A DNA stretch of 64,000 nt from Bacillota bacterium. Lineage in GTDB: Bacteria; Armatimonadota; HRBIN16. Numbering within the stretch: the first letter of the stretch is position 1; every line of letters begins with the position of its first letter. This document shows positions 6,723-47,832 of this stretch, one piece after another. The notes under the pieces are model-generated. The model made no database searches and had not been told where the DNA came from. It saw only the letters and a program-made list of their open reading frames with translations. Made by a program: the position numbers and the translations under genes. Where the stretch lies: assembly GCA_023511455.1 (NCBI GenBank), contig JAIMBJ010000018.1, positions 1-64,000 on the forward strand. The letters run 5' to 3'.

Positions 6723-9700
6723 ATGCAATACCTCATCCGTGAATATCGGCGGGATGACCCTGAAGACGCCCGCAAGCTCGCCGAGATGTGGAACGAATCG
6801 GACAAAGCCTGGCCCGAGGGCTTCACTCACGGAGTACCTCTCACTGCGAAGCACGTCCAGCATTGGATGGGAAACGCTTCGCGTTTGGCGATATTCGTGG
6901 TGGAATATGACGGACGGCTCGTCGGCTATGGCGACCTCTATGCCCAGAAAGGGCAAAAAGAGGTAGCATATATCGACCTTTTGAACGTCTCCCCGGCGCA
7001 TCAAGGTAAGGGGTTGGGGCGTGACCTCATTCTCACCATCTTGAAGCGTACCGTGGAGCTGGGCTACAAGCAGCTGACTCTGCACACCTGGCCTGGCAAC
7101 TTGCAGGCGGTGCCGCTCTACAAGAAGACCGGCTTCTTCTGGAAGCCCGATACCAGCGTGTACATGCAAAACTTCATCCCGACTATCCTCACTCTGCCCA
7201 TCGCTCAGGAGTTCTTTGCCCGACACGACTGGTACAGAACCTTCCGGCGCGACCTGTCGGTGCAACCCGATGACCAGCGATGGAAGGACGTCCCCGTTTA
7301 TATCTACGAGTGGGAAGCGGACAACGAGGTTTTGCGGGTGGTGATAGACCGCGAGGCGGAAGCGGTAACGGCGGTGGAAACCAACCGGCTGTCGGTCTCG
7401 TGTTCCACAGGTTGCGCAAGGCTGGCGGCGGGACTGAGAGCCACAGCACGCTGGGAGATAGAGAACAGACAACCTCACCCGATGACAGTGGGTATCATTG
7501 CACGGGGCGAGGAAGGCATCCTGCTGGAGGTACAGGAGGGAGCAGTGATACGGGAGCGTCTGACACTGGAGCGTGAATACCGTCTGCACCCACAGGCTCG
7601 CCCCTCTGATGCGAACCGCCCCGCCTCTAAAATCCGCTCCACGCTTCTGCTGGATGGTATGACGATAGAGCTGGGCAGCGGCGTACGCATCTTGCCTGCG
7701 ATAGACATCCTGTTCAACGGCTGCGGTCTTCGCTTTGGAAAGCCGGAGAGGGTAACGGTCAACCTGCGCAGCTACCTGCCTTTCCCCATCAGGGGGCGAG
7801 TACTGCTGGAACAGTTTCCGGGGCTAATCACAGGAACCCCGCAGATGCCTTTTGAGATAGAGGCAGAGAGCTGGAGCGCGGTCACCATGGTGGTAACCCC
7901 TTACGAATCCGGCGTTCTCACCCCTCGTTTGCAGGTTATGGTGGAAGAGGCGCTGGACGAGCAGAAGGCGCGGGAAGTCGGTTTTGAAGCACCTCTTCGC
8001 TGTCGCCCCAAACAGATTGCCCTGCGAGTGCTGGATACCGGCAAAGTGTTGGGCAGTATCCTGCCCGAATCGAATGAGGCAGTGCTGGAGAACACCACAC
8101 TGACGGTCAGCATTTCGTTGCAGGGAGGTACACTGCGGGTTCGTCACCGCCTGCTGGACAGGGAGGTGATATGGCAGGATGCAGGTTCGCTCGGACCGCC
8201 TTTCGAAGGATGGCAGCAGATACCGAGAACCTTCTCCGCACGCCTGAAGGAGTCTGCCGGGGCGTCGACCCTCGTCATCGAGATGCCGACCGCCGACGAT
8301 CCCCAGCTGATACTGGAGAAGTGGATTACCCTCACTGCATCGTCGGTGCTGCGGGTGCAGTGGCGAGTGGTCAATATCGGCGAAAAGCCCTTCTCCGGTA
8401 AGGTGCGGGTTACGACGGGTGCTCCACGAAGCCGTCGGATAGCCATCCCTCTGAAAGAGGGCATCCTTCACGAACCGATAGAGGGCTGGGGCGAGTTCCC
8501 GCTGGGCTATACCGACCTGCCCTTAAGCGAGGCAGAGTACGCTGAGCCGTGGATTGCGTGGGAGGAAGATGGGCGCGCTGTGGGAGTGATATGGGAAGAG
8601 TGCCATGAACAGGAGATAAATCCCCAGCAGATATCTCAAGACCTCATGGTGTCGGATGTGCCTCCACAGAATGGCTTCTTCTTGCCTGCCATGTACCTGC
8701 TGCCGGAAGCCGGAAGCTGGCAGGACGTACGCCGATGGTGGGGGAGGCTTGCCGAACTGGAGGATGACATACCTTCCGCGCTTCCTGTGGTTCCGCTTAC
8801 CGAGGTTCGGCTCGAACCTGTACCCCTGCTGTTACTGGAAGATGAGGCACACGTGACACTGAGCGTGTACCACCGGCGACTGAAATCGCTGACCGGCACA
8901 CTCCGCCTACAGTCGCCGCTGGCTACCTTCCGGAAAGCGCAGTTCGTGCTGGAAAACGTGAATCTGAAGCGTCCCTTCCATGAGCGGATTCAGATGGTGA
9001 CCATGCTTGCGGGTAACGATGCCTTTGTGGTGCAGGCGGTATTGGATACAGAGACCACCTCGCGCGAGTTCTCTCTTCCGGTGCTGAAAGCGGGCGATTC
9101 GCGCTGTGCGTTTTCCGTTCAGCAGGACGGCGAGGTGTACGTCGTGGACAACGGGAAGATGCGTTTGCAGGTCGCGCCGCACTTCGGCGGCTCGCTGGTG
9201 TCGCTGGAAGCGGACGGTGCAAACCATCTGCTCAGCGCATACCCCGAGGCGCAACCGTTCCTCTGGTTCAATCCCTGGTTTGGGGGCATCCATCCGGTGT
9301 GTGACGAGTTGTGGAGCCGTATCCTGGACGACGCCCTGTTCACAGCGGAGCCGGTGGAAGTCAACGGGGAAAGAGGTTTCGCGTGGAAGGGGGTTCGGGT
9401 GGCTACAAAGCCGCGGCACCGCGACTGGCGCTGGTTACGCCTGGAGTGCGAGTACCTGACGTTGCCCGGCAGCAACCTGCTCGCCGTGCGGCTGCGCATA
9501 TACAACCTCACCACGGCTGAGAGACGCGCCTCGTTTGGCGTGGCAGTCTGGTGTCAACCCTCGGGACAACGTGAAGAGGCTTTGGCGATTTACGAGCGCG
9601 GTGGTCAGGAAGCAACACGACGTCGGAGCGACTATTCGGTAGATATCCGCAGCGGCAGATGGGCGGCGGTACAGCATGGTCAAACGGGGGCGACACTGCT

Positions 9701-11299: not shown

Positions 11300-12205
11300 T
11301 TACCGCCCACTGCGCGGCGCAAAGTAGAATTGGGCATCCGGTTTGTTCTTCACGCAGCCGGCGATAGGCGAACCAGGCATCTCCTGGTTCATGTTGCCCC
11401 ACGAGTTGGAGCAGGCGTTGTGGCCGGGATACGTCTCGGTGCTGTACATTCGGTTAGACCCCCTCACCGTCTTCACATGCCCGTCGACGAGCGCCACGAC
11501 AGTGGTGCCGTTGTAGCGGTCCTGTGCTTTGCGCCAGCCGAAGGTAGGACCAAACTCACCCGTGTTATTGGCGGTCTCATCGAACGATTCGTTGAGCAGG
11601 ATCAACTGAGCTGGCTCGGCGAAGCTCGCCAATCGTCCCGGCTGCGCCAGGTCCTCGCTACAGTTGTACCAGCCCTGCGGGCAACCCCAGTCGTAAGCCC
11701 AGAAGACATGCGAGATGGAACCGTTCATAGCATAGGAAAAGATGGGCGCTTGCGGAGTTGTCTTGCAGTTGTTCGGGTCGCCGCCGCAGATATCGGACAG
11801 ACGCACCCCTGCGCCGTCCACCGACGGAGCGGTTTTGCTCCACGCCGGCGACACGACGATACTGGCGAACTCTCGCCAGTTATCGGGGTGGTAAGGGTCA
11901 AACCAGCTGCCATCCGGGTTGCGTCGCTTCTCACCACCGTTCTTGGTGTAGGGATACACCAGTTCCGGCCAGTGCCAGAGACCGCCATCCGGATGCCCCC
12001 CTCCTATAGTGGGGCAGAGCGTCTCATCGTAGTCCTGCGCATACATCTGGTGCGCCAACGCCAGCTGCTTCAGGTTACTGATGCTTTTCGCCTTGCGGGC
12101 GTTTTCCCGTGCCTGTGCGAACACGGGGAACAGAATCGCCGCCAGTATCGCGATAATCGCGATAACCACCAGCAATTCGATGAGCGTAAAGGCGTGTCGT
12201 TTCAT
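11300..12205 (-). CDS. DUF1559-type prepilin-like protein 1
   Basis: 301 residues. The N-terminus [16 protein letters not shown] is a type IV prepilin/pseudopilin signal: a short basic leader, Phe+1, Glu+5, then a hydrophobic helix (about 6-27). The cleavage residue is Ala rather than the usual Gly. The C-terminal motif LVDGHVKTV is the DGH signature of the DUF1559 family, which is strongly expanded in Planctomycetota and Armatimonadota. The mature protein should be exported by a type II/IV assembly machine whose genes are not here. GGAGGG lies 8 nt before the ATG. Its role is unknown; such proteins are presumed surface fibre or pseudopilus subunits. Confidence 0.9.
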
Positions 12206-14593: not shown

Positions 14594-15325
14594 TTACTGC
14601 GGACAGTTTGGATGCCAGAAGTCCCCACCGGGAATGGGGTAGCGACGGATAAGCTCAACGCCAGAGTAGGGTTCGCCACACGGGTTCGACAGCCATGTGC
14701 CCTGACTCAGCCACTTGGCGTGACCGTCAAAGAACATCGCGTTACACCCACCCGAATGCCGACGCATTGCCAGCACGGGCTGTCCATAGCCGGGCTTGTC
14801 ATACAGGTTCTTGGGGGGCTCGTACCACGAGTCGTCAAACGGGTCGCCCTTCTCGGTGACAATCACGATGTCCGCCGGGTTGTCGATGGCTGCTTGAGGC
14901 AAACACTCCCCGGCGCGGTTTGCCACGTAGGAGCGCGGCACGTAGGGCTTACCGTCCTGCCCGTTCTCCAAAATATGCGGGACTCTGCCTGCGTCGGAAG
15001 GGCACACCAGTAACGCTCCGCCCATGCGCGTGTAAGGCAAAATCTGGTTCCACCAGCGGTTCTCGCGCGTTGCGCCCAGCGGGGCGGCGGGATAGCACCT
15101 GCTCAGCCGACTGTTATGCCCGAAGAAGAAACTCAGCCCATCCGAATCTTCCATGTACATGGTCAGCGCGATGCCCAGCTGGCGCATGTTGGAGAGGCAG
15201 CTGGCTTGCCGTGCCTTCTCTCGCGCCTGCGAGAAAACGGGGAACAGAATCGCTGCGAGGATAGCGAGAATGGCAATCACCACTAGAAGTTCAATGAGAG
15301 TGAACGCTTTTGTCATCAAACGCAC
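14594..15325 (-). CDS. DUF1559-type prepilin-like protein 2
   Basis: 243 residues from a GTG start at 15325, chosen because AGGAGG lies 6 nt upstream; an ATG three codons later is the alternative. [19 protein letters not shown] is a prepilin signal with Ala at -1, Phe+1 and Glu+5. The C-terminal third has the DUF1559 motif [10 protein letters not shown]. The central region carries paired cysteines (VCPSDAG, and LSRCYP further upstream). It is a standalone gene with its own promoter, divergent from the hydrolase. Presumed exported fibre or pseudopilus-like subunit; role unknown. Confidence 0.9.
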
Positions 15326-38518: not shown

Positions 38519-39886
38519 ATGTGGACTCGGCTTTGCAGCTTCGCCGTCAATCTGCTATTGCTGGTCGGGCTGTTGACAACACTGTCTGCACAAGAGGTGG
38601 CGCAACGTCGGGGCACTTCCCCCGCTCCTGCTCCGCCATCTTCCCCACCTGTGGAGAACAACGCCGCGCAGCCCTCGCTCGAAGTGGCTGCTGGACCGGA
38701 AGGGGTATCGGTGTTCGCGGTTGGGGTAGACGCACAGGAGTTGCTCACCCGCCTTGCCAAAGAGACGGGCATCCGCCTCATCGTGGACGATACGGTGCGG
38801 CGTACCGTTACCATCAATCTGGTCAACATGCCGGTAACGCGCATTCTGGAGATTATCGCGGCAGCGTATGGGCTTTCCTATCGCGAAGTCAACGGTATCT
38901 TCATGCTCAGCGAAGGCATTCCCAGAAGTCCTTCCTCCTACCTGCTCAGCGATATCGACACCATCACCACGCAGTATGTGCTGGCGCCTAACGCCAAGTC
39001 GCTGCTGCCCGTGTTCTTGCAGGACCATGTGAAGACCAATGCGGAGCAGAACGCGGTCATCCTGTCTGCCCCGCCGGAGGTGCTGAAGAAGTTCCGCGAG
39101 GACATCAAGCAGTTCGACATCCCCGCAGCGCAGATTATGATCGACGTGCTGATGGTGGAGTTTACCGACTCCGCCGCGCGAGAGTTTCGGGCGCAGTGGG
39201 GCTGGAGCAACGACGAGCGCAGTGTCACCGTGGATTCGCCGCTGGGGCAGGTTGTCTTCCGCTCGGTAGCCACCCTGCGCACCGAGTTTTTCACCAGCCT
39301 GCGCGCGCTGGTCACGCAGGGCAAAGCCCGCGTACACGCCAACCCGCGCATCGCCACCGTCAGCGGACAGCGAGCGAGCATCTTCATCGGCAAACAGAGG
39401 TATCTCAGCACACCGGTCAGCATCGGCGGGGGCAGGGGAGAAGGCGACTACTTCTTCCGCCAGACCAACTTCATCGACGCGGGCGTACGGTTGAACATCA
39501 CGCCGTGGACGGGTGGCGAGGGCGAGATTATTGTGGACGTACAGCCTGAGATCAGTGTGTTAAGCGCGCCTGACCCCAAAACCGGCTTGCCCGACAAAAG
39601 CACTCGCCGCGCCAACACCACCGTGCGCGTGCGTGACGGCGAGACCATCATCATCGGCGGGTTGGTTCAGCGTGAGCTGATGTCCACCAAAACCAAAGTT
39701 CCCATTCTCGGCGACATTCCCCTGATTGGACAGTTCTTCCGCTCCGAGGATACCAAGGAGTCGGTGACCGAGATGGCTATCTTCATCACTCCACGCATCC
39801 TGTCGCAGACCGGACACTTGCCCACCGAGCAGGAAGAAGCGCTGAAGAAACGCTTCCTGCAAGAGGAGAAGAATGCACCGCGGTAG
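38519..39886 (+). CDS. Secretin-family protein 1
   Basis: 455 residues. A signal peptide (about 1-25, ending TLSAQ), a Pro/Ala-rich linker, an STN/N0-like domain (about 62-128, VDAQELLTRLAKETGIRLIVDD), an N1-like domain (about 145-205) and a C-terminal secretin barrel domain (about 205-435). The secretin signature VPILGDIPLIGQFF and VTEMAIFITPRIL are intact. Secretins form outer-membrane gates for type II or III secretion, type IV pili or filamentous phage. It is the shortest of three consecutive secretin genes, and the next gene overlaps it by 14 bp. Confidence 0.9.
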   Translation: MWTRLCSFAVNLLLLVGLLTTLSAQEVAQRRGTSPAPAPPSSPPVENNAAQPSLEVAAGPEGVSVFAVGVDAQELLTRLAKETGIRLIVDDTVRRTVTINLVNMPVTRILEIIAAAYGLSYREVNGIFMLSEGIPRSPSSYLLSDIDTITTQYVLAPNAKSLLPVFLQDHVKTNAEQNAVILSAPPEVLKKFREDIKQFDIPAAQIMIDVLMVEFTDSAAREFRAQWGWSNDERSVTVDSPLGQVVFRSVATLRTEFFTSLRALVTQGKARVHANPRIATVSGQRASIFIGKQRYLSTPVSIGGGRGEGDYFFRQTNFIDAGVRLNITPWTGGEGEIIVDVQPEISVLSAPDPKTGLPDKSTRRANTTVRVRDGETIIIGGLVQRELMSTKTKVPILGDIPLIGQFFRSEDTKESVTEMAIFITPRILSQTGHLPTEQEEALKKRFLQEEKNAPR

Positions 39887-41597
39887 GCTGCTGTGTCTCG
39901 CCTTGTTATTCGCGCTGATGGTCGCTGCGCAAGCCCAGCAGCGACGGATGCCTTACTGCAACATCGTGGCGGTGGAGAGCCGGCGCATCGGCAACGCGGT
40001 GCAGGTCACCATCCGCGCCGACGGATTGATGCGCTTGCAGTTCGATCCCTCGCGCTACGTGGCTGAAACCCGGGCGCAACGGGGTGCTGGCGACCCACGC
40101 AAGCCGGTGCTGGAAATCCCCTTCCGCGTGACCAATGCGCGCTCGCAGGTTAGCAGCTTCATCGACGTCGGCATCTATCCCGTCAGTCATGTAGAAGTAT
40201 CCCTTCCCCCGGACACGCCGGACGGACTGGGGGTGGACATCAAAGTGGTGCTGTTTAACGCCGCGGTTGTGCGATCGGGGCGGATTGGAGACAGCGAGTG
40301 GGACTTCAGCGGACTGCCTTACGCCGGTCCTACCTTTAGCGTGCAGCAAACACCGGACCAGCGCTCGCTCATCATCCTGGTGACCAGCGACAGACGCACC
40401 CTGCCCCCTGTCCAGAGACGCAAGCCCGGCGAGGCAACTCCGTCCGAACTGTTGGTAGAGGCTGACGGCGACACCGTGAGCATCTTCGCACTCAACGCCG
40501 ACCTGCGCGATCTGATGCGCGAGTTCACCCGCCAAACGGGCATCGTGGTGCTTGTAGACCCCGATCTGGAGCGGGCGGTCAGCCTGTGCTTGCAGGAGGT
40601 CACTTCGGAGGAAGCGTTGCAGGCTATCGCGACCGGATATGGGCTGGAGCTGGGGCGTGTTAACGGGGCGTGGTTTATGGGAGAAGGAGCCGTTGGCAGC
40701 TTGAATACCTATCTGGAGATCTCGCTGGAGAAAATCCCTCTCAACTATATCAGCGCCGCGTCCGCCCGAAACAGCCTGCCGGAGTTCCTGCTCAAGTATC
40801 TGCGCGTCAACGCCGGTGAGAACTCGCTGACGGTGGTTGGTCCCCCGCCCCTCGTGCAGAAGGTGCGTGAGGACATCCGCAAGATAGACCAGCCCGTGCC
40901 ACATGTGCAGATAGACGCCCTCATCGTCGAGATGACCGATATGGACGACAGCGAAACCGTGCTGCGCCTCGTAGCAGCGGATGTGCATAACACGGTGAGG
41001 GTGAGCACGGGCACAGGCGATATCACTTATCAGATATTTGGCGTACCTCGAACAGATATCGAAGCCAGACTGCGTGCGCTGGCAGCGGAAGGCAGAGTAC
41101 GTATCCGCGCCACCCCTACCGCCGTCGCACTCAACGGGCAAAGCGCACGCATCTTCAGCGGACAACAGCGCTACATCAAGGCGGACTACTTCGAGGAATG
41201 GTCCCAGGCGTTCATCACGCGTGTGTTTCCAGTGGACGTGGGCGTCAGTCTGGAAATGAACTGCTGGGTGGGTGCAGAGGGCGTCATTCTGGCGACTGTC
41301 ATTCCGCAGGTGACCGCTGTGGCGGAACTGGATGTGGTCACCGGCTTGCCCACCGTCTCCACACGTCGGGCAGAGACCACCGTGCTGCTGCACGACGGCG
41401 AAACGCTGTTCATCGGCGGACTGAAGCTGCAGCAGCACGATGCCATCACGCGCAAGGTGCCTTTGCTGGGCGATTTGCCGCTGATTGGTGGGCTTTTCCG
41501 TGCCAAAACCCAGCGACGCACCACAACCGAGTTAGCTATCTTGGTCACTCCGCGCATCATCACATCGTCACACAGGGAGGTTAGCAGCATCCGATGA
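39873..41597 (+). CDS. Secretin-family protein 2 with AMIN-like N-domain
   Basis: 574 residues. A signal peptide (about 1-21, ending AQAQ) precedes a beta-rich AMIN-like domain (about 28-175, YCNIVAVESRRIGNAVQVTIRADG). Then come STN/N0 (about 205-275), N1-like (about 285-355) and the secretin domain ending VPLLGDLPLIGGLF and ELAILVTPRII. AMIN domains bind peptidoglycan in PilQ-like secretins. It shares its N-domain pattern with protein 3 but not with protein 1. It overlaps both neighbours and is translationally coupled to them. Confidence 0.9.
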   Translation: MHRGRLLCLALLFALMVAAQAQQRRMPYCNIVAVESRRIGNAVQVTIRADGLMRLQFDPSRYVAETRAQRGAGDPRKPVLEIPFRVTNARSQVSSFIDVGIYPVSHVEVSLPPDTPDGLGVDIKVVLFNAAVVRSGRIGDSEWDFSGLPYAGPTFSVQQTPDQRSLIILVTSDRRTLPPVQRRKPGEATPSELLVEADGDTVSIFALNADLRDLMREFTRQTGIVVLVDPDLERAVSLCLQEVTSEEALQAIATGYGLELGRVNGAWFMGEGAVGSLNTYLEISLEKIPLNYISAASARNSLPEFLLKYLRVNAGENSLTVVGPPPLVQKVREDIRKIDQPVPHVQIDALIVEMTDMDDSETVLRLVAADVHNTVRVSTGTGDITYQIFGVPRTDIEARLRALAAEGRVRIRATPTAVALNGQSARIFSGQQRYIKADYFEEWSQAFITRVFPVDVGVSLEMNCWVGAEGVILATVIPQVTAVAELDVVTGLPTVSTRRAETTVLLHDGETLFIGGLKLQQHDAITRKVPLLGDLPLIGGLFRAKTQRRTTTELAILVTPRIITSSHREVSSIR

Positions 41598-43246
41598 GAA
41601 GAACCTTACTCCTTACCCTGCTGAGTGTGGCTCTGGCTGTTCCATCGCTGGCGCAAACCACTGCCTATTGCAATATCACGGAGATACGTGCCGACCAGCT
41701 GAGCAACGGGGTGCAGATTACCGTGCGCGCCGACGGCGTGCTGGAATGGCAGGCGGAAGGCGGACTTTGGGGGCGGCGCAACCGCATCGCCCTGCGCTTT
41801 ACCAACGCCAAGTCGCAAATCGGTAAGAACTTCATCGACGTCAGCAAGTTCCCCGTGAGCTATATCCAGCTTTCGGTGCCGCAGAACGCGGTGGAGGGAA
41901 TCGGCGTGTCGATGGTGGTTGCGCTGTTCGAGCCGTCGCGTGTGAATGTCGAGCGCAGCAACGACCAGCAGAGTGTCATCATCACCGTCAGCAGCGAGCG
42001 CACGCTGGTGGGGAGGCAGACGACCAATAACGACACCGCGCGCACAGAAGCAGCCGCTCAGCTGCAGGTGGAGTACGAGAACGGTCTGCTATCGATACAC
42101 AGCGTCAAAACGCGACTGTATCTGCTTCTCGCGGAGATCGCCCGCAAGACGGGGGTCAACATCGCCGTGGACGACTCGGTGCGCAACCGCGAGGTGTCGA
42201 TGTCGGTGGAGAACCTGCCTGTGGACGAGATGATACGCGGTATCGCCAGCGCATACGGGCTGGCTCTTTCGGAAGTGAACGGGGTGTACATGGTGAGTGA
42301 CGGCGTCCCCACCGACCTTGCGCCTTACCGGTTGTCCGGCACGGAGTCTTTCCGGATGAAATACATCAAGGCGCAGTTGGCGTCGGGGCTGCTGCCCACC
42401 TTCCTTTACAGTTACCTGCACGTGAACGAGGCGCAAAACGCGGTGGTGGTGACCGCTCCCACGCAGATGCTGGACAAAATCCGCTCGGACTTCCAGAAGA
42501 TAGACCTGCCGCCGCCGCAGATTATGATCGAAGCGCTGGCGGTAGAGATTGCCTCCACCGAAGACCTCGACGCCTCGCTGGGGCTGTCGTTCACCGATAG
42601 CTGGATTACCGCCTCCTCGGATTCGGGCACCGGCGATTTCCTCTATCGCACCATCGGCACCCTGCCGGAAGATTTCAGGGTGAAGCTGAACGCTCTGGAG
42701 GCACAGGGTAAAGCGCGCGTACGCGCCAACCCGCGCATGGCGGCAGTGAACGGACAGGATGCCGACATCTTCATTGGGCAGACGAAGTTTATCAAGGTGG
42801 AAGTGACCTCGTATGGAGGCAAGCAAGAGCGCATTCAGGGCGTGGATGTGGGCGTGAAGCTCTCGGTGCGTCCCTGGACTGGCGGCAACGGGGAAATCAC
42901 CCTCACCATCGAGCCGGAGGTGAGCAATATCAGTGAGCTGGACCGCGAGACGGGGATGCCCGTGCTTTCTACTCGGCGGGCGCAAACCACTGTGCGCGTG
43001 AAAGATGGAGAGACCATTATCATTGGTGGACTGACACAGCAGCAGGAATATAAAACGCGTACCAAAATCCCCGTTCTGGGCGACATTCCGATACTCGGCA
43101 CGCTGTTCCAGGGCACGAAGACCAGCCGAATCAACTCCGAGCTGCTCATCTTCGTGACCCCGCACATTTTAACCGACAGCGGTCGTTTGAAGGATGAGGC
43201 GGCGGAACAACGCATTCGCGAGCGGATGCTTCCCAAAACACCTTAG
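41594..43246 (+). CDS. Secretin-family protein 3 with AMIN-like N-domain
   Basis: 550 residues, starting in an ATGA overlap with protein 2. Signal peptide (about 1-20, ending SLAQ), AMIN-like domain (about 22-150, YCNITEIRADQLSNGVQITVRADG), STN/N0 (about 170-240), N1-like (about 250-315) and secretin domain (about 315-530) with VPVLGDIPILGTLF-type signature and LLIFVTPHIL. None of the three secretins has a recognisable pilotin-binding S-domain, and no pilM/N/O/P or gsp genes are near. It converges on and overlaps the CoA-binding gene by 4 bp. Confidence 0.9.
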   Translation: MRRTLLLTLLSVALAVPSLAQTTAYCNITEIRADQLSNGVQITVRADGVLEWQAEGGLWGRRNRIALRFTNAKSQIGKNFIDVSKFPVSYIQLSVPQNAVEGIGVSMVVALFEPSRVNVERSNDQQSVIITVSSERTLVGRQTTNNDTARTEAAAQLQVEYENGLLSIHSVKTRLYLLLAEIARKTGVNIAVDDSVRNREVSMSVENLPVDEMIRGIASAYGLALSEVNGVYMVSDGVPTDLAPYRLSGTESFRMKYIKAQLASGLLPTFLYSYLHVNEAQNAVVVTAPTQMLDKIRSDFQKIDLPPPQIMIEALAVEIASTEDLDASLGLSFTDSWITASSDSGTGDFLYRTIGTLPEDFRVKLNALEAQGKARVRANPRMAAVNGQDADIFIGQTKFIKVEVTSYGGKQERIQGVDVGVKLSVRPWTGGNGEITLTIEPEVSNISELDRETGMPVLSTRRAQTTVRVKDGETIIIGGLTQQQEYKTRTKIPVLGDIPILGTLFQGTKTSRINSELLIFVTPHILTDSGRLKDEAAEQRIRERMLPKTP

Positions 43247-43667: not shown

Positions 43668-44672
43668 TTACGGCTGGGGAGACGCTAAGGTAGCTTGCGC
43701 GTCGTCCCAACCCTGGACGTTCCCGTCCAGCACACAGAGGACGCGCGAATGTTGCGCTTCCAGACGGGCTTCTTCGGTGAGTTCCTGTCCTGCGACAGCC
43801 GCCAGACACTCCAGTCCCGCTCGGCTCATCAGGTCGGCGCGCCGGCGTGCGCGGGCAACGTCTGTGGTGTCCACCACCGCAGAGACCTCCATGACCAAAT
43901 ACACCTCTTTGTCAGGCGCGCTCGCCAGTCGCCCGCGGGCTAAGACATCCGCCCGGAAAACGTCCACGACCTCTTCGTTGGAGAGAGCCTGACGCAACGG
44001 TTCCTCCACGTCGGGAGGATCGACGACACGGATGCGACGCAATACCGTGCCCATGTAGGCATGGATGTGTTTCTGGTAATGGTACTCTAGATACCATCCT
44101 TTCAACTGCGATACGTCTTGGTCGAGACGCCGAAGCCATTCACTGTGTTCCGTTACCACGCGGATCAATTCATTCAATGCGGCGGATATATCCGCAAACC
44201 GCTCCTCCGACGCCTGCCGATAGGCGGCTAGTTCCTCTGCCTGGCGTTCTAAAGCTGCCTCAATGCGTGCAAACCGCTCCTCCGACGCCTGCCGATAGGC
44301 GGCTAGTTCCTCTGCCTGGCGTTCTAAAGCCGCCTCAATGCGCGCAAACCGCTCCTCCGACGCCTGCCGATAGGCGGCTAACTCCTCCGTCTGGCGTTCT
44401 AAAGCCGCCTCAATGCGTGCAAACCGCTCCTCCGACGCCTGCCGATAGGCGGCTAACTCCTCCGTCTGGCGTTCTAAAGCCGCCTCAATGCGCGCAAACC
44501 GCTCCTCCGACGCCTGCCGATAGGCAATAATTTCATCTGTTAGCCGGTCGACCTTAGCAGGCAGGGCGAGGAACTCATCTGTTGCAAGCGCGACAAACAC
44601 CCTTCGCCGCAGGTCGGGGTCGCTGCGCAAAATCTCAATCAGTTGCTCAATGTCGCTGATGTTCAATGCCAT
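43668..44672 (-). CDS. Coiled-coil protein with five 25-residue repeats and a PD-(D/E)XK-like C-domain
   Basis: 334 residues from ATG 44672 (GGAG 7 nt upstream). A short N-domain (SDIEQLIEILRSDPDLRRRV) leads into five copies of a 25-residue motif, AYRQASEERFARIEAALERQ and flanking residues. Then come a helical linker and a C-terminal domain with VFRADVLARGRL and YLVMEVSAVVDTTDVARARRRADL. The Asp and Glu-x-Ser there sit like the acidic residues of a PD-(D/E)XK nuclease core, with Ser in place of Lys, so activity is doubtful. Similar coiled-coil/nuclease-fold proteins are common and uncharacterised in Cyanobacteria, Archaea and Armatimonadota. Confidence 0.7.
   Translation of the reverse strand: MALNISDIEQLIEILRSDPDLRRRVFVALATDEFLALPAKVDRLTDEIIAYRQASEERFARIEAALERQTEELAAYRQASEERFARIEAALERQTEELAAYRQASEERFARIEAALERQAEELAAYRQASEERFARIEAALERQAEELAAYRQASEERFADISAALNELIRVVTEHSEWLRRLDQDVSQLKGWYLEYHYQKHIHAYMGTVLRRIRVVDPPDVEEPLRQALSNEEVVDVFRADVLARGRLASAPDKEVYLVMEVSAVVDTTDVARARRRADLMSRAGLECLAAVAGQELTEEARLEAQHSRVLCVLDGNVQGWDDAQATLASPQP
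44194..44525 (-). repeat. 75-bp tandem repeat inside the coiled-coil gene
   Basis: The landmark GCCTGCCGA recurs at 44212, 44287, 44362, 44437 and 44512, an exact 75-bp period. Copies differ by only a few bases (such as GCCTGG versus GTCTGG), which shows recent duplication or gene conversion. Confidence 0.92.
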
Positions 44673-44701
44673 TCTCTCACTCCGCGCCGTTGCTACGCTA
44701 A

Positions 44702-44710
44702 ATTGTACCA
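44702..44710 (-). promoter_or_regulatory. Extended -10 promoter of the coiled-coil gene
   Basis: TGGTACAAT on the minus strand, about 30 nt before the ATG at 44672. Confidence 0.55.
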
Positions 44711-44727
44711 CAGCGGCAATGGCGCAT

Positions 44728-45345
44728 TCACCGTCCAGCGACCGCCGCCTGCCAGGGCTCGCGGTGGGTTGCCTCATACGCGGCGATTTTGTCTTCGTGC
44801 TGCAGCGTCAAGCCAATGTCATCCAGCCCTTCCAGCAGACACCTCTTGCGGAACGGGTCTATCTCGAAACGGCACGTAAAACCGTCGCTCCCCGTGATGG
44901 TCTGCGCTTCCAGGTCTACCGTAATCTGATATCCCTCCTGATTCTGCACGCGATAGAACAGGTCGTCGACCACCTCTGCCGATAGCTCGATGGGCAAAAT
45001 CCCGTTCTTGAAGCAGTTCGTCCTGAAGATGTCGGCGAAGGAGGGGGCGATAATCACCCGAAAGCCATAGTCCAGCAACGCCCAGGGTGCATGTTCCCGG
45101 CTGGAACCACAGCCGAAGTTCTCGCGGGTGAGCAGGATTTGCGCTCCCCGATAACGAGGCTGGTTCAACACGAAGTCTGGGTTCGGTGTCCCGTCCGGCA
45201 GGAAACGCCAATCGAAAAACAGAAACTGCCCGAAGCCCGTGCGCTCCACACGTTTCAGGAACTGCTTGGGCACAATCTGGTCGGTGTCCACGTTGGGCTG
45301 GTCCAGCGGTGCTACCAGCGCGGTCATCTTTTCGAACGGTTTCAT
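44728..45345 (-). CDS. leuD: 3-isopropylmalate dehydratase small subunit
   Basis: 205 residues. [31 protein letters not shown] and the [32 protein letters not shown] block are diagnostic for LeuD, the swivelling domain that completes the aconitase-like active site with LeuC. The enzyme isomerises 2- to 3-isopropylmalate in leucine synthesis. Its start overlaps the leuC stop by 4 bp. Confidence 0.97.
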
Positions 45346-47040: not shown

Positions 47041-47832
47041 ATGAAACGCACAAGGGCTTTTACCTTAATCGAGCTGCTGGTTGTCATCGCGATTATCGCG
47101 ATACTGGCGGCGATCCTGTTCCCCGTTTTCTCGCAGGCACGCGAGAAGGCTCGGCAGACGCAGTGCCTCTCCAACACCAAGCAAATCGGTTTGGCGTGCA
47201 TGATGTACATTCAGGATTATGACGAAGTCATGCCGCCGGGCTACGATTACCGTCAGGGGGGCGATACCACTGTCTGGTACATGCAGTTGCTCTACCCGTA
47301 TCTCAAGGACCTGAACGAGGGCGGAATTCGCACCTGCCCTTCTGCAACGTATCGCCATGCGTGGGCGTACGCTTACAACGACCTGCTCAACTATAAGTCG
47401 CAGGCAGCGATGCCGCGCCCCGCGGAGACCATCCTGCAGGGCGACACCGGTCAGGTTCCCGAGTGGGCCGGCTATTGCTCCTCCACCTTCTGGAACTGGT
47501 GGACGCCCGAAGTGTGGCAGGATCCTGCCACCGGGCAGATTCCGCCGCCCAACTACTGGGACGACAACCAGGTGAACCCGCAGTCGGTGCTGCTGTGGAG
47601 ACTGCCGGACGGCACTAACATCGATGCTGATGCGCCGAACCCCATCCAGATTTGGAGTGCGGTCGGCAAGGTGGGCAACCTGCGCTTCCGCCACAACATG
47701 ACGGCGAATGTCACGTTTGCCGACGGACATGCCGCCAATGTGAAGCGCACTGCCGGCCCCGGCGCTGGCGGTGCAGGGGGCACCACTGTGAAGCTCTATC
47801 AGTTCCGCTTTGCCCTGCAGAACAGGATGTAA
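47041..47832 (+). CDS. DUF1559-type prepilin-like protein 3
   Basis: 263 residues. [20 protein letters not shown] is a prepilin signal (Ala at -1, Phe+1, Glu+5) with a hydrophobic helix to about residue 29. [38 protein letters not shown] and the C-terminal [11 protein letters not shown] are DUF1559 family marks. GGGAGG lies before the ATG. It has a strong promoter, a long leader and a strong terminator, so it may be well expressed. Presumed surface fibre or pseudopilus subunit; role unknown. Confidence 0.92.

Follow-up and report, generated by a model that had tools for sequence, protein, structure and literature searches.

A 64,000-nucleotide stretch of Armatimonadota DNA (hereafter the window) carries three consecutive, overlapping genes, designated S1, S2 and S3, each of which encodes a complete secretin-family protein, and no secretion or pilus machine is linked to them. 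This three-secretin operon is intact in approximately 25 families of one phylum, which suggests a new mode of construction or use of outer-membrane gates. The protein family itself is known; the arrangement of three co-inherited, phylum-specific secretins without a linked machine is one that we did not find described in the literature searched. We tentatively interpret S1, S2 and S3 as co-assembling into one joint gate, through mixed rings or another form of joint assembly, with S2 as a non-equivalent subunit, and give this reading nearly an even chance of being correct.

Secretins of type II and type III secretion systems, type IV pili, Tad systems and filamentous phages are textbook homo-oligomers and, to our knowledge, the same is true of every secretin ring described so far. 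The envelope of Armatimonadota has been little studied, and the trio would help to explain how material is transported across the outer membrane in this phylum. The three proteins are also a specific target with which to ask whether mixed secretin rings exist. A type II secretion system (T2SS) has been reported in Armatimonadetes (Denise et al. 2019, PMC6668835), and the portion of that paper considered here makes no mention of secretin triplets. The only case of mixed secretin rings that we found is the in vitro mixing of variants of one secretin, PulD (PMC4604470), and no paper on multi-secretin loci of Armatimonadota was found in the literature searched.

Organization of the secretin operon

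The three genes lie on the + strand at positions 38519-43246 of the window. Their features are as follows.

38519..39886, + strand: S1, minimal secretin of 455 aa (signal peptide, N0, N1, secretin domain)
38723..38911, + strand: S1 N0/STN domain, residues 69-131 (Pfam STN 88-131 and AlphaFold model)
38951..39133, + strand: S1 N1/Secretin_N domain, residues 145-205 (PF03958 171-205, range extended by the AlphaFold model)
39305..39802, + strand: S1 secretin C-domain, residues 263-428 (PF00263, positions 1-168 of 169)
39873..41597, + strand: S2, fast-evolving secretin of 574 aa with an extra N-terminal domain and without a C-terminal tail
39957..40385, + strand: S2 beta-rich N-terminal domain, residues 29-171, also present in S3 (S2-S3 alignment, AlphaFold model)
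41076..41561, + strand: S2 secretin C-domain, residues 402-563 (PF00263)
41594..43246, + strand: S3, secretin of 550 aa (AMIN-like N-domain, N0, N1, secretin domain, C-terminal tail)
41657..42001, + strand: S3 AMIN-like N-terminal domain with a conserved NAKSQIGKNFIDVSKFPVSYIQLSVPQ motif (alignment, weak AMIN match)
42692..43171, + strand: S3 secretin C-domain, residues 367-526 (PF00263)

The start of S2 overlaps the stop of S1 by 14 bp, and the start of S3 overlaps the stop of S2 by 4 bp (ATGA). Each protein matches positions 1-168 of the 169-position Pfam Secretin profile (PF00263), with E values of 1.8e-42 (S1), 8.9e-36 (S2) and 4.9e-46 (S3) and scores of 123-157 bits (cut-off 27.5). The first-pass annotation of three complete, overlapping secretin genes is therefore upheld. 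The secretin signature (GGL and PxLGxIPxIGxLF) was found in S1, S2 and S3 of the window, and S1 ends in a conserved C-terminal tail (..TGHLP..E..L..RFL).

N0, N1 and the secretin strands are all recognizable in the AlphaFold models of S1 (pLDDT 72) and S2 (mean pLDDT 83), the latter of which has a complete secretin fold. When these models were compared with solved secretins using Foldseek, PilQ, GspD and InvG structures ranked at the top (E values of approximately 1e-17 to 1e-18). The sequence profiles of all three proteins cover the entire C-domain of solved GspD and PilQ chains (best E values of approximately 1e-39 to 1e-42). Retention of the C-domain in both models argues against loss of the secretin barrel from two of the three proteins.

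An STN/N0-like domain had initially been assigned to every member of the trio. STN/N0 was detected by sequence in S1 and weakly in S3, and N0 is present in the models of S1 and S2. Secretin_N was recognized in all three proteins. S2 and S3 align at 36% over approximately 560 aa, and S1 becomes alignable with them only shortly ahead of N0, which agrees with the earlier observation that S1 lacks the N-terminal domain shared by the other two. Its designation as an AMIN domain is weakly supported by sequence: the match has an E value of up to 0.1, under the Pfam cut-off in the window protein, and among relatives it was obtained for 7 of 35 S3 and 1 of 40 S2 proteins.

Relationship to known secretins

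The trio resembles PilQ (TIGR02515; NCBIfam E values of 1e-35 to 1e-48) in its N0, N1 and secretin C-domains and in the AMIN-like N-domain of S2 and S3, but its scores (165, 121 and 155 bits) are below the cut-off of 284. Unlike PilQ, it comprises three copies, falls outside the PilQ-type secretins of the phylum in the tree, and has no adjoining pilM, pilN, pilO or pilP genes, none being present beside it in the window or conserved at approximately 40 loci of relatives. Moreover, a separate PilQ is already encoded within a pil locus of the same genome (contig C5). GspD (TIGR02517) and PilQ are the closest solved structures by both profile and fold (5wq7, 6w6m, 6ve2), but the GspD scores of the trio (169, 135 and 174 bits) do not reach the cut-off of 351, and the three proteins differ from GspD in lacking the N2/N3 repeats in a joint alignment and in having no conserved gsp genes nearby. 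The SctC model was matched at 87-105 bits versus a cut-off of 238, and no sct genes were recognized within the window. S1 has the short N0-N1-secretin architecture of HofQ and other minimal secretins, but differs from HofQ in its score (97 bits versus a cut-off of 554) and in being partnered by S2 and S3.

Conservation and origin of the operon

A search of Armatimonadota genomes for conserved triple-secretin neighbourhoods, suggested at the outset, was positive. S3 matches at E <= 1e-45 were found in 81 of the 291 genomes; 7 of these contained a distant single secretin only and were dropped, which leaves the S1-S2-S3 operon in approximately 74 of 291 genomes and approximately 25 of 45 families. 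Within the genus of the source genome, the trio, whole or as fragments at contig edges, was found in all 10 genomes. The operon is complete and ordered in 40 of the 41 named-genome loci with sufficient upstream DNA, gene order and adjacency are identical in all families examined, and apparent lone copies, where checked, sit at contig ends. Relative to the stop of the gene before, candidate start codons fall within -45 to +30 bp for S2 in 42 and for S3 in 41 of 44 loci, and 4-bp overlaps are possible in 19 and 18, respectively. The genes are thus co-inherited as a unit with overlaps or short gaps, as would be expected of the proposed hetero-oligomeric secretin. Chance adjacency of the three genes is ruled out by this phylum-wide conservation.

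The sole incomplete locus is that of G220, a chromosome-level MAG (CP070816) with a run of N within S2 (L137, approximately 9000-9200) and a portion of S3 far away (L231); its scaffold join is likely wrong. For these reasons the T2SS-like (gsp-type) genes near the trio in this genome, which lie beyond the scaffold gap, were discounted and their adjacency is not trusted.

The S3 family is found in named Armatimonadota genomes, including HRbin16, Chthonomonas, Abditibacterium, Capsulimonas, Zipacnadia and Hebobacteria, among others. A few records filed under Bacillota are probably mislabelled, and one match under Nitratiruptor is a distant secretin. The trio is also encoded in a complete, single-contig genome (G074), whose genus code is the same as that of a genome matching Capsulimonas sp., so a culturable host may exist. 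The distribution is patchy inside families (e.g. f24 and f13), which suggests that the whole operon was lost at once or transferred as a whole.

In maximum-likelihood trees S1, S2 and S3 form one clade each (SH-aLRT 100, 98 and 99/97), with S2 and S3 as sister clades, and the trio is set apart from the PilQ/GspD-type secretins of Armatimonadota. The monophyly of each paralogue indicates a single ancient triplication, inherited as a unit. A recent local duplication in one genome was ruled out, since every paralogue constitutes an old clade. The within-clade distances of S1, S2 and S3 are correlated (r 0.76-0.81, calculated without a housekeeping control).

Divergence of S2 and proposed assembly of a joint gate

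The three paralogues evolve unequally. S2 is the fastest, with a mean pairwise identity of 28% versus 49% for S1 and 45% for S3. The PxLGxIPxIGxLF motif near the C-terminus is kept in 34 of 34 S1 and 34 of 35 S3 proteins versus 16 of 40 S2 proteins. A tail motif at the C-terminus (GHLP or GRL, then E..R.RFL) is present in at least 27 of 34 S1 and at least 20 of 35 S3 proteins, these counts being minima as some rows are incomplete, and in none of 40 S2 proteins. This tail is similar in position to the pilotin-binding S-domain of T2SS secretins, a resemblance only. S2 has eroded its signature in many relatives, yet loss of S2 alone was never seen.

The joint gate that we tentatively favour would be made of S1, S2 and S3 as co-translated subunits of one outer-membrane secretin specific to Armatimonadota or, in an alternative form, would consist of mixed rings drawn from one pool of the three proteins. 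S1 and S3 would be the canonical subunits forming the wall, and S2 a relaxed, non-equivalent subunit whose assembly with them would explain its persistence. The N-domains of S2 and S3 may hold the ring to peptidoglycan, and the N0 rings could be the docking surface for an inner-membrane partner whose gene lies elsewhere. All-or-none retention, fixed gene order, congruent trees and the erosion of S2 provide indirect support for hetero-oligomerization. All-or-none inheritance together with survival of a degenerate S2 favours mixed assembly, and the erosion of the signature counts in the same direction, since a lone S2 ring would be expected to retain it. The more specific proposal, i.e. a hetero-oligomeric ring of three paralogues, one of them degenerate, serving phylum-specific export or uptake distinct from type II, type III and type IV-pilus systems, is possible but less likely than not.

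The main rival, which we judge a credible though less probable explanation, is that the genes encode three distinct homo-oligomeric rings whose joint expression serves a single process in the envelope. The rings might, for instance, be three export channels or provide the dispersed type IV filament machines with alternative outer-membrane pores. The conserved operon and the congruent trees are also compatible with one pathway that uses three separate rings, and the homo-oligomeric nature of known secretins, together with the full secretin domain and complete fold kept in each member of the trio, favours this arrangement. However, all-or-none retention over approximately 25 families is not what three independent rings would lead one to expect, and neither is an S2 whose signature is eroded and which is nevertheless never lost or found alone.

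Genomic neighbourhood and candidate partners

Judged by reading of the adjacent sequences, the trio is preceded in the window by genes for an aldolase-type protein and a toxin-antitoxin-like pair and by miaB, and is followed by genes for a CoA-binding protein and a coiled repeat protein and by leuC/leuD. The gene at 43668-44777 encodes a protein with tandem AYRQASEERFARIEAALERQ repeats, and comparable genes with repeats are again found close to the trio within the genus, e.g. L046:4017-4748. Besides the trio, the only secretion genes in the window are three isolated prepilin-like genes:

11300-12205: orphan prepilin-like gene
14594-15325: orphan prepilin-like gene
47041-47832: orphan prepilin-like gene

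One of the three matches the H-X9-DG model. They had been taken as possible partners of the secretins, an idea that we abandon: with approximately 76 genes of this kind in the 3.85 Mb of the source genome, 1.3 are expected per 64 kb and the three of the window are unremarkable background, and across genomes pseudopilin number shows no visible tracking of the trio, the counts with and without it overlapping.

Among 36 loci from outside the genus, clustering of the neighbouring genes gave no family, apart from secretins, that occurs in more than 7. Besides the untrusted G220 scaffold, type IV filament genes lie near the trio at 2 of approximately 40 loci. The first-pass view that no secretion or pilus machine is linked to the trio thus holds for the window and extends to the relatives, in which adjacent gsp or pil genes are not conserved. 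In family f19 the trio follows dnaX-ybaB-recR (L111, L137), and in the source genome the same genes are followed by an orphan GspE-type ATPase (L068:3721-8244, contig C48).

Five secretins are encoded in the assembly, i.e. the trio, PilQ on C5 and one on C29 adjoining an aroK-like gene. The C5 locus is an ordinary pil locus (PilM, PilO-like, PilP-like, PilQ and PilB), to which family searches added further ATPase and platform genes. Contig C21 (L065:8294-20000) carries PilB-PilT-PilC-PilD and four pseudopilin-type genes, without PilQ, PilM, PilN, PilO or a linked secretin; its pseudopilins are unusually large (600-900 aa) and have relatives across most of the phylum. Contig C30 (L067:7169-9598) contains two adjoining GspF-type platform genes, which have orthologues in several families and lack a neighbouring ATPase gene, and GspE-type orphan ATPases are located on C48 and C37. 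Filament ATPases are found on C5, C21, C37 and C48 and platforms on C5, C21 and C30, but just one filament locus in the genome has its own secretin, a combination that is consistent with three separate rings. The trio could not be regarded as the only secretins, replacing PilQ, since C5 and C29 carry others and other trio-bearing genomes likewise have more. Of the earlier picture of a dispersed export machine, the existence of filament parts without a linked secretin (C21, C30, C37 and C48) is confirmed, but no observation connects them with the trio.

No inner-membrane partner among the machine components tested tracks the distribution of the trio. The tandem GspF pair of C30 was rejected as a partner, because its orthologues are distributed differently. 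The C21 machine, which is without its own secretin, is a candidate partner only. That the trio forms the outer-membrane part of this widespread type of machine (PilB-PilT-PilC-PilD with large minor pseudopilins) is unlikely, and such a role can be combined with either a joint gate or three rings. It is suggested by G003, in which a complete C21-type cluster lies downstream of the trio on the same strand, with pilB starting approximately 4 kb past S3, and by G047, a member of another family, in which four C21-type pseudopilin genes follow on the same strand. Against it, X-like and I-like pseudopilins of this type are found in 241 and 199 of 291 genomes, respectively, mostly without the trio, and some trio-bearing genomes of family f4 lack them; this mismatch led us to reject them as obligate partners. 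Given the rarity of the adjacency and the many pseudopilins without a trio, the link is a lead and not a rule.

It is very improbable that one or two of the proteins are non-functional paralogues or regulatory decoys, with only S1 or S3 as the working secretin: S2 is indeed fast-evolving and partly eroded, but a decaying gene would not keep its reading frame and its position in one family after another, and S2 retains the N-domain, N0, N1 and C-domain fold.

Other observations

In genome G202, belonging to another family, contig C355 is 92% identical to the C21 pseudopilin gene of the genus and occurs beside the genome's own diverged copy; it probably represents MAG contamination.

Single minimal secretins with an N0-N1-secretin architecture like that of S1 were found in families f12 and f15 (L262, L263, L264:7431-10312, L265:4307-7314, L266:8800-12071, L267 and L268). 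In contrast to the trio, these secretins are single and form their own clade. Their genes lie directly downstream of a gene for a large Ig/PapD-like periplasmic protein, a putative chaperone, often with genes for small secreted proteins near. These loci possibly encode a chaperone-secretin fibre system in which the secretin replaces the usher.
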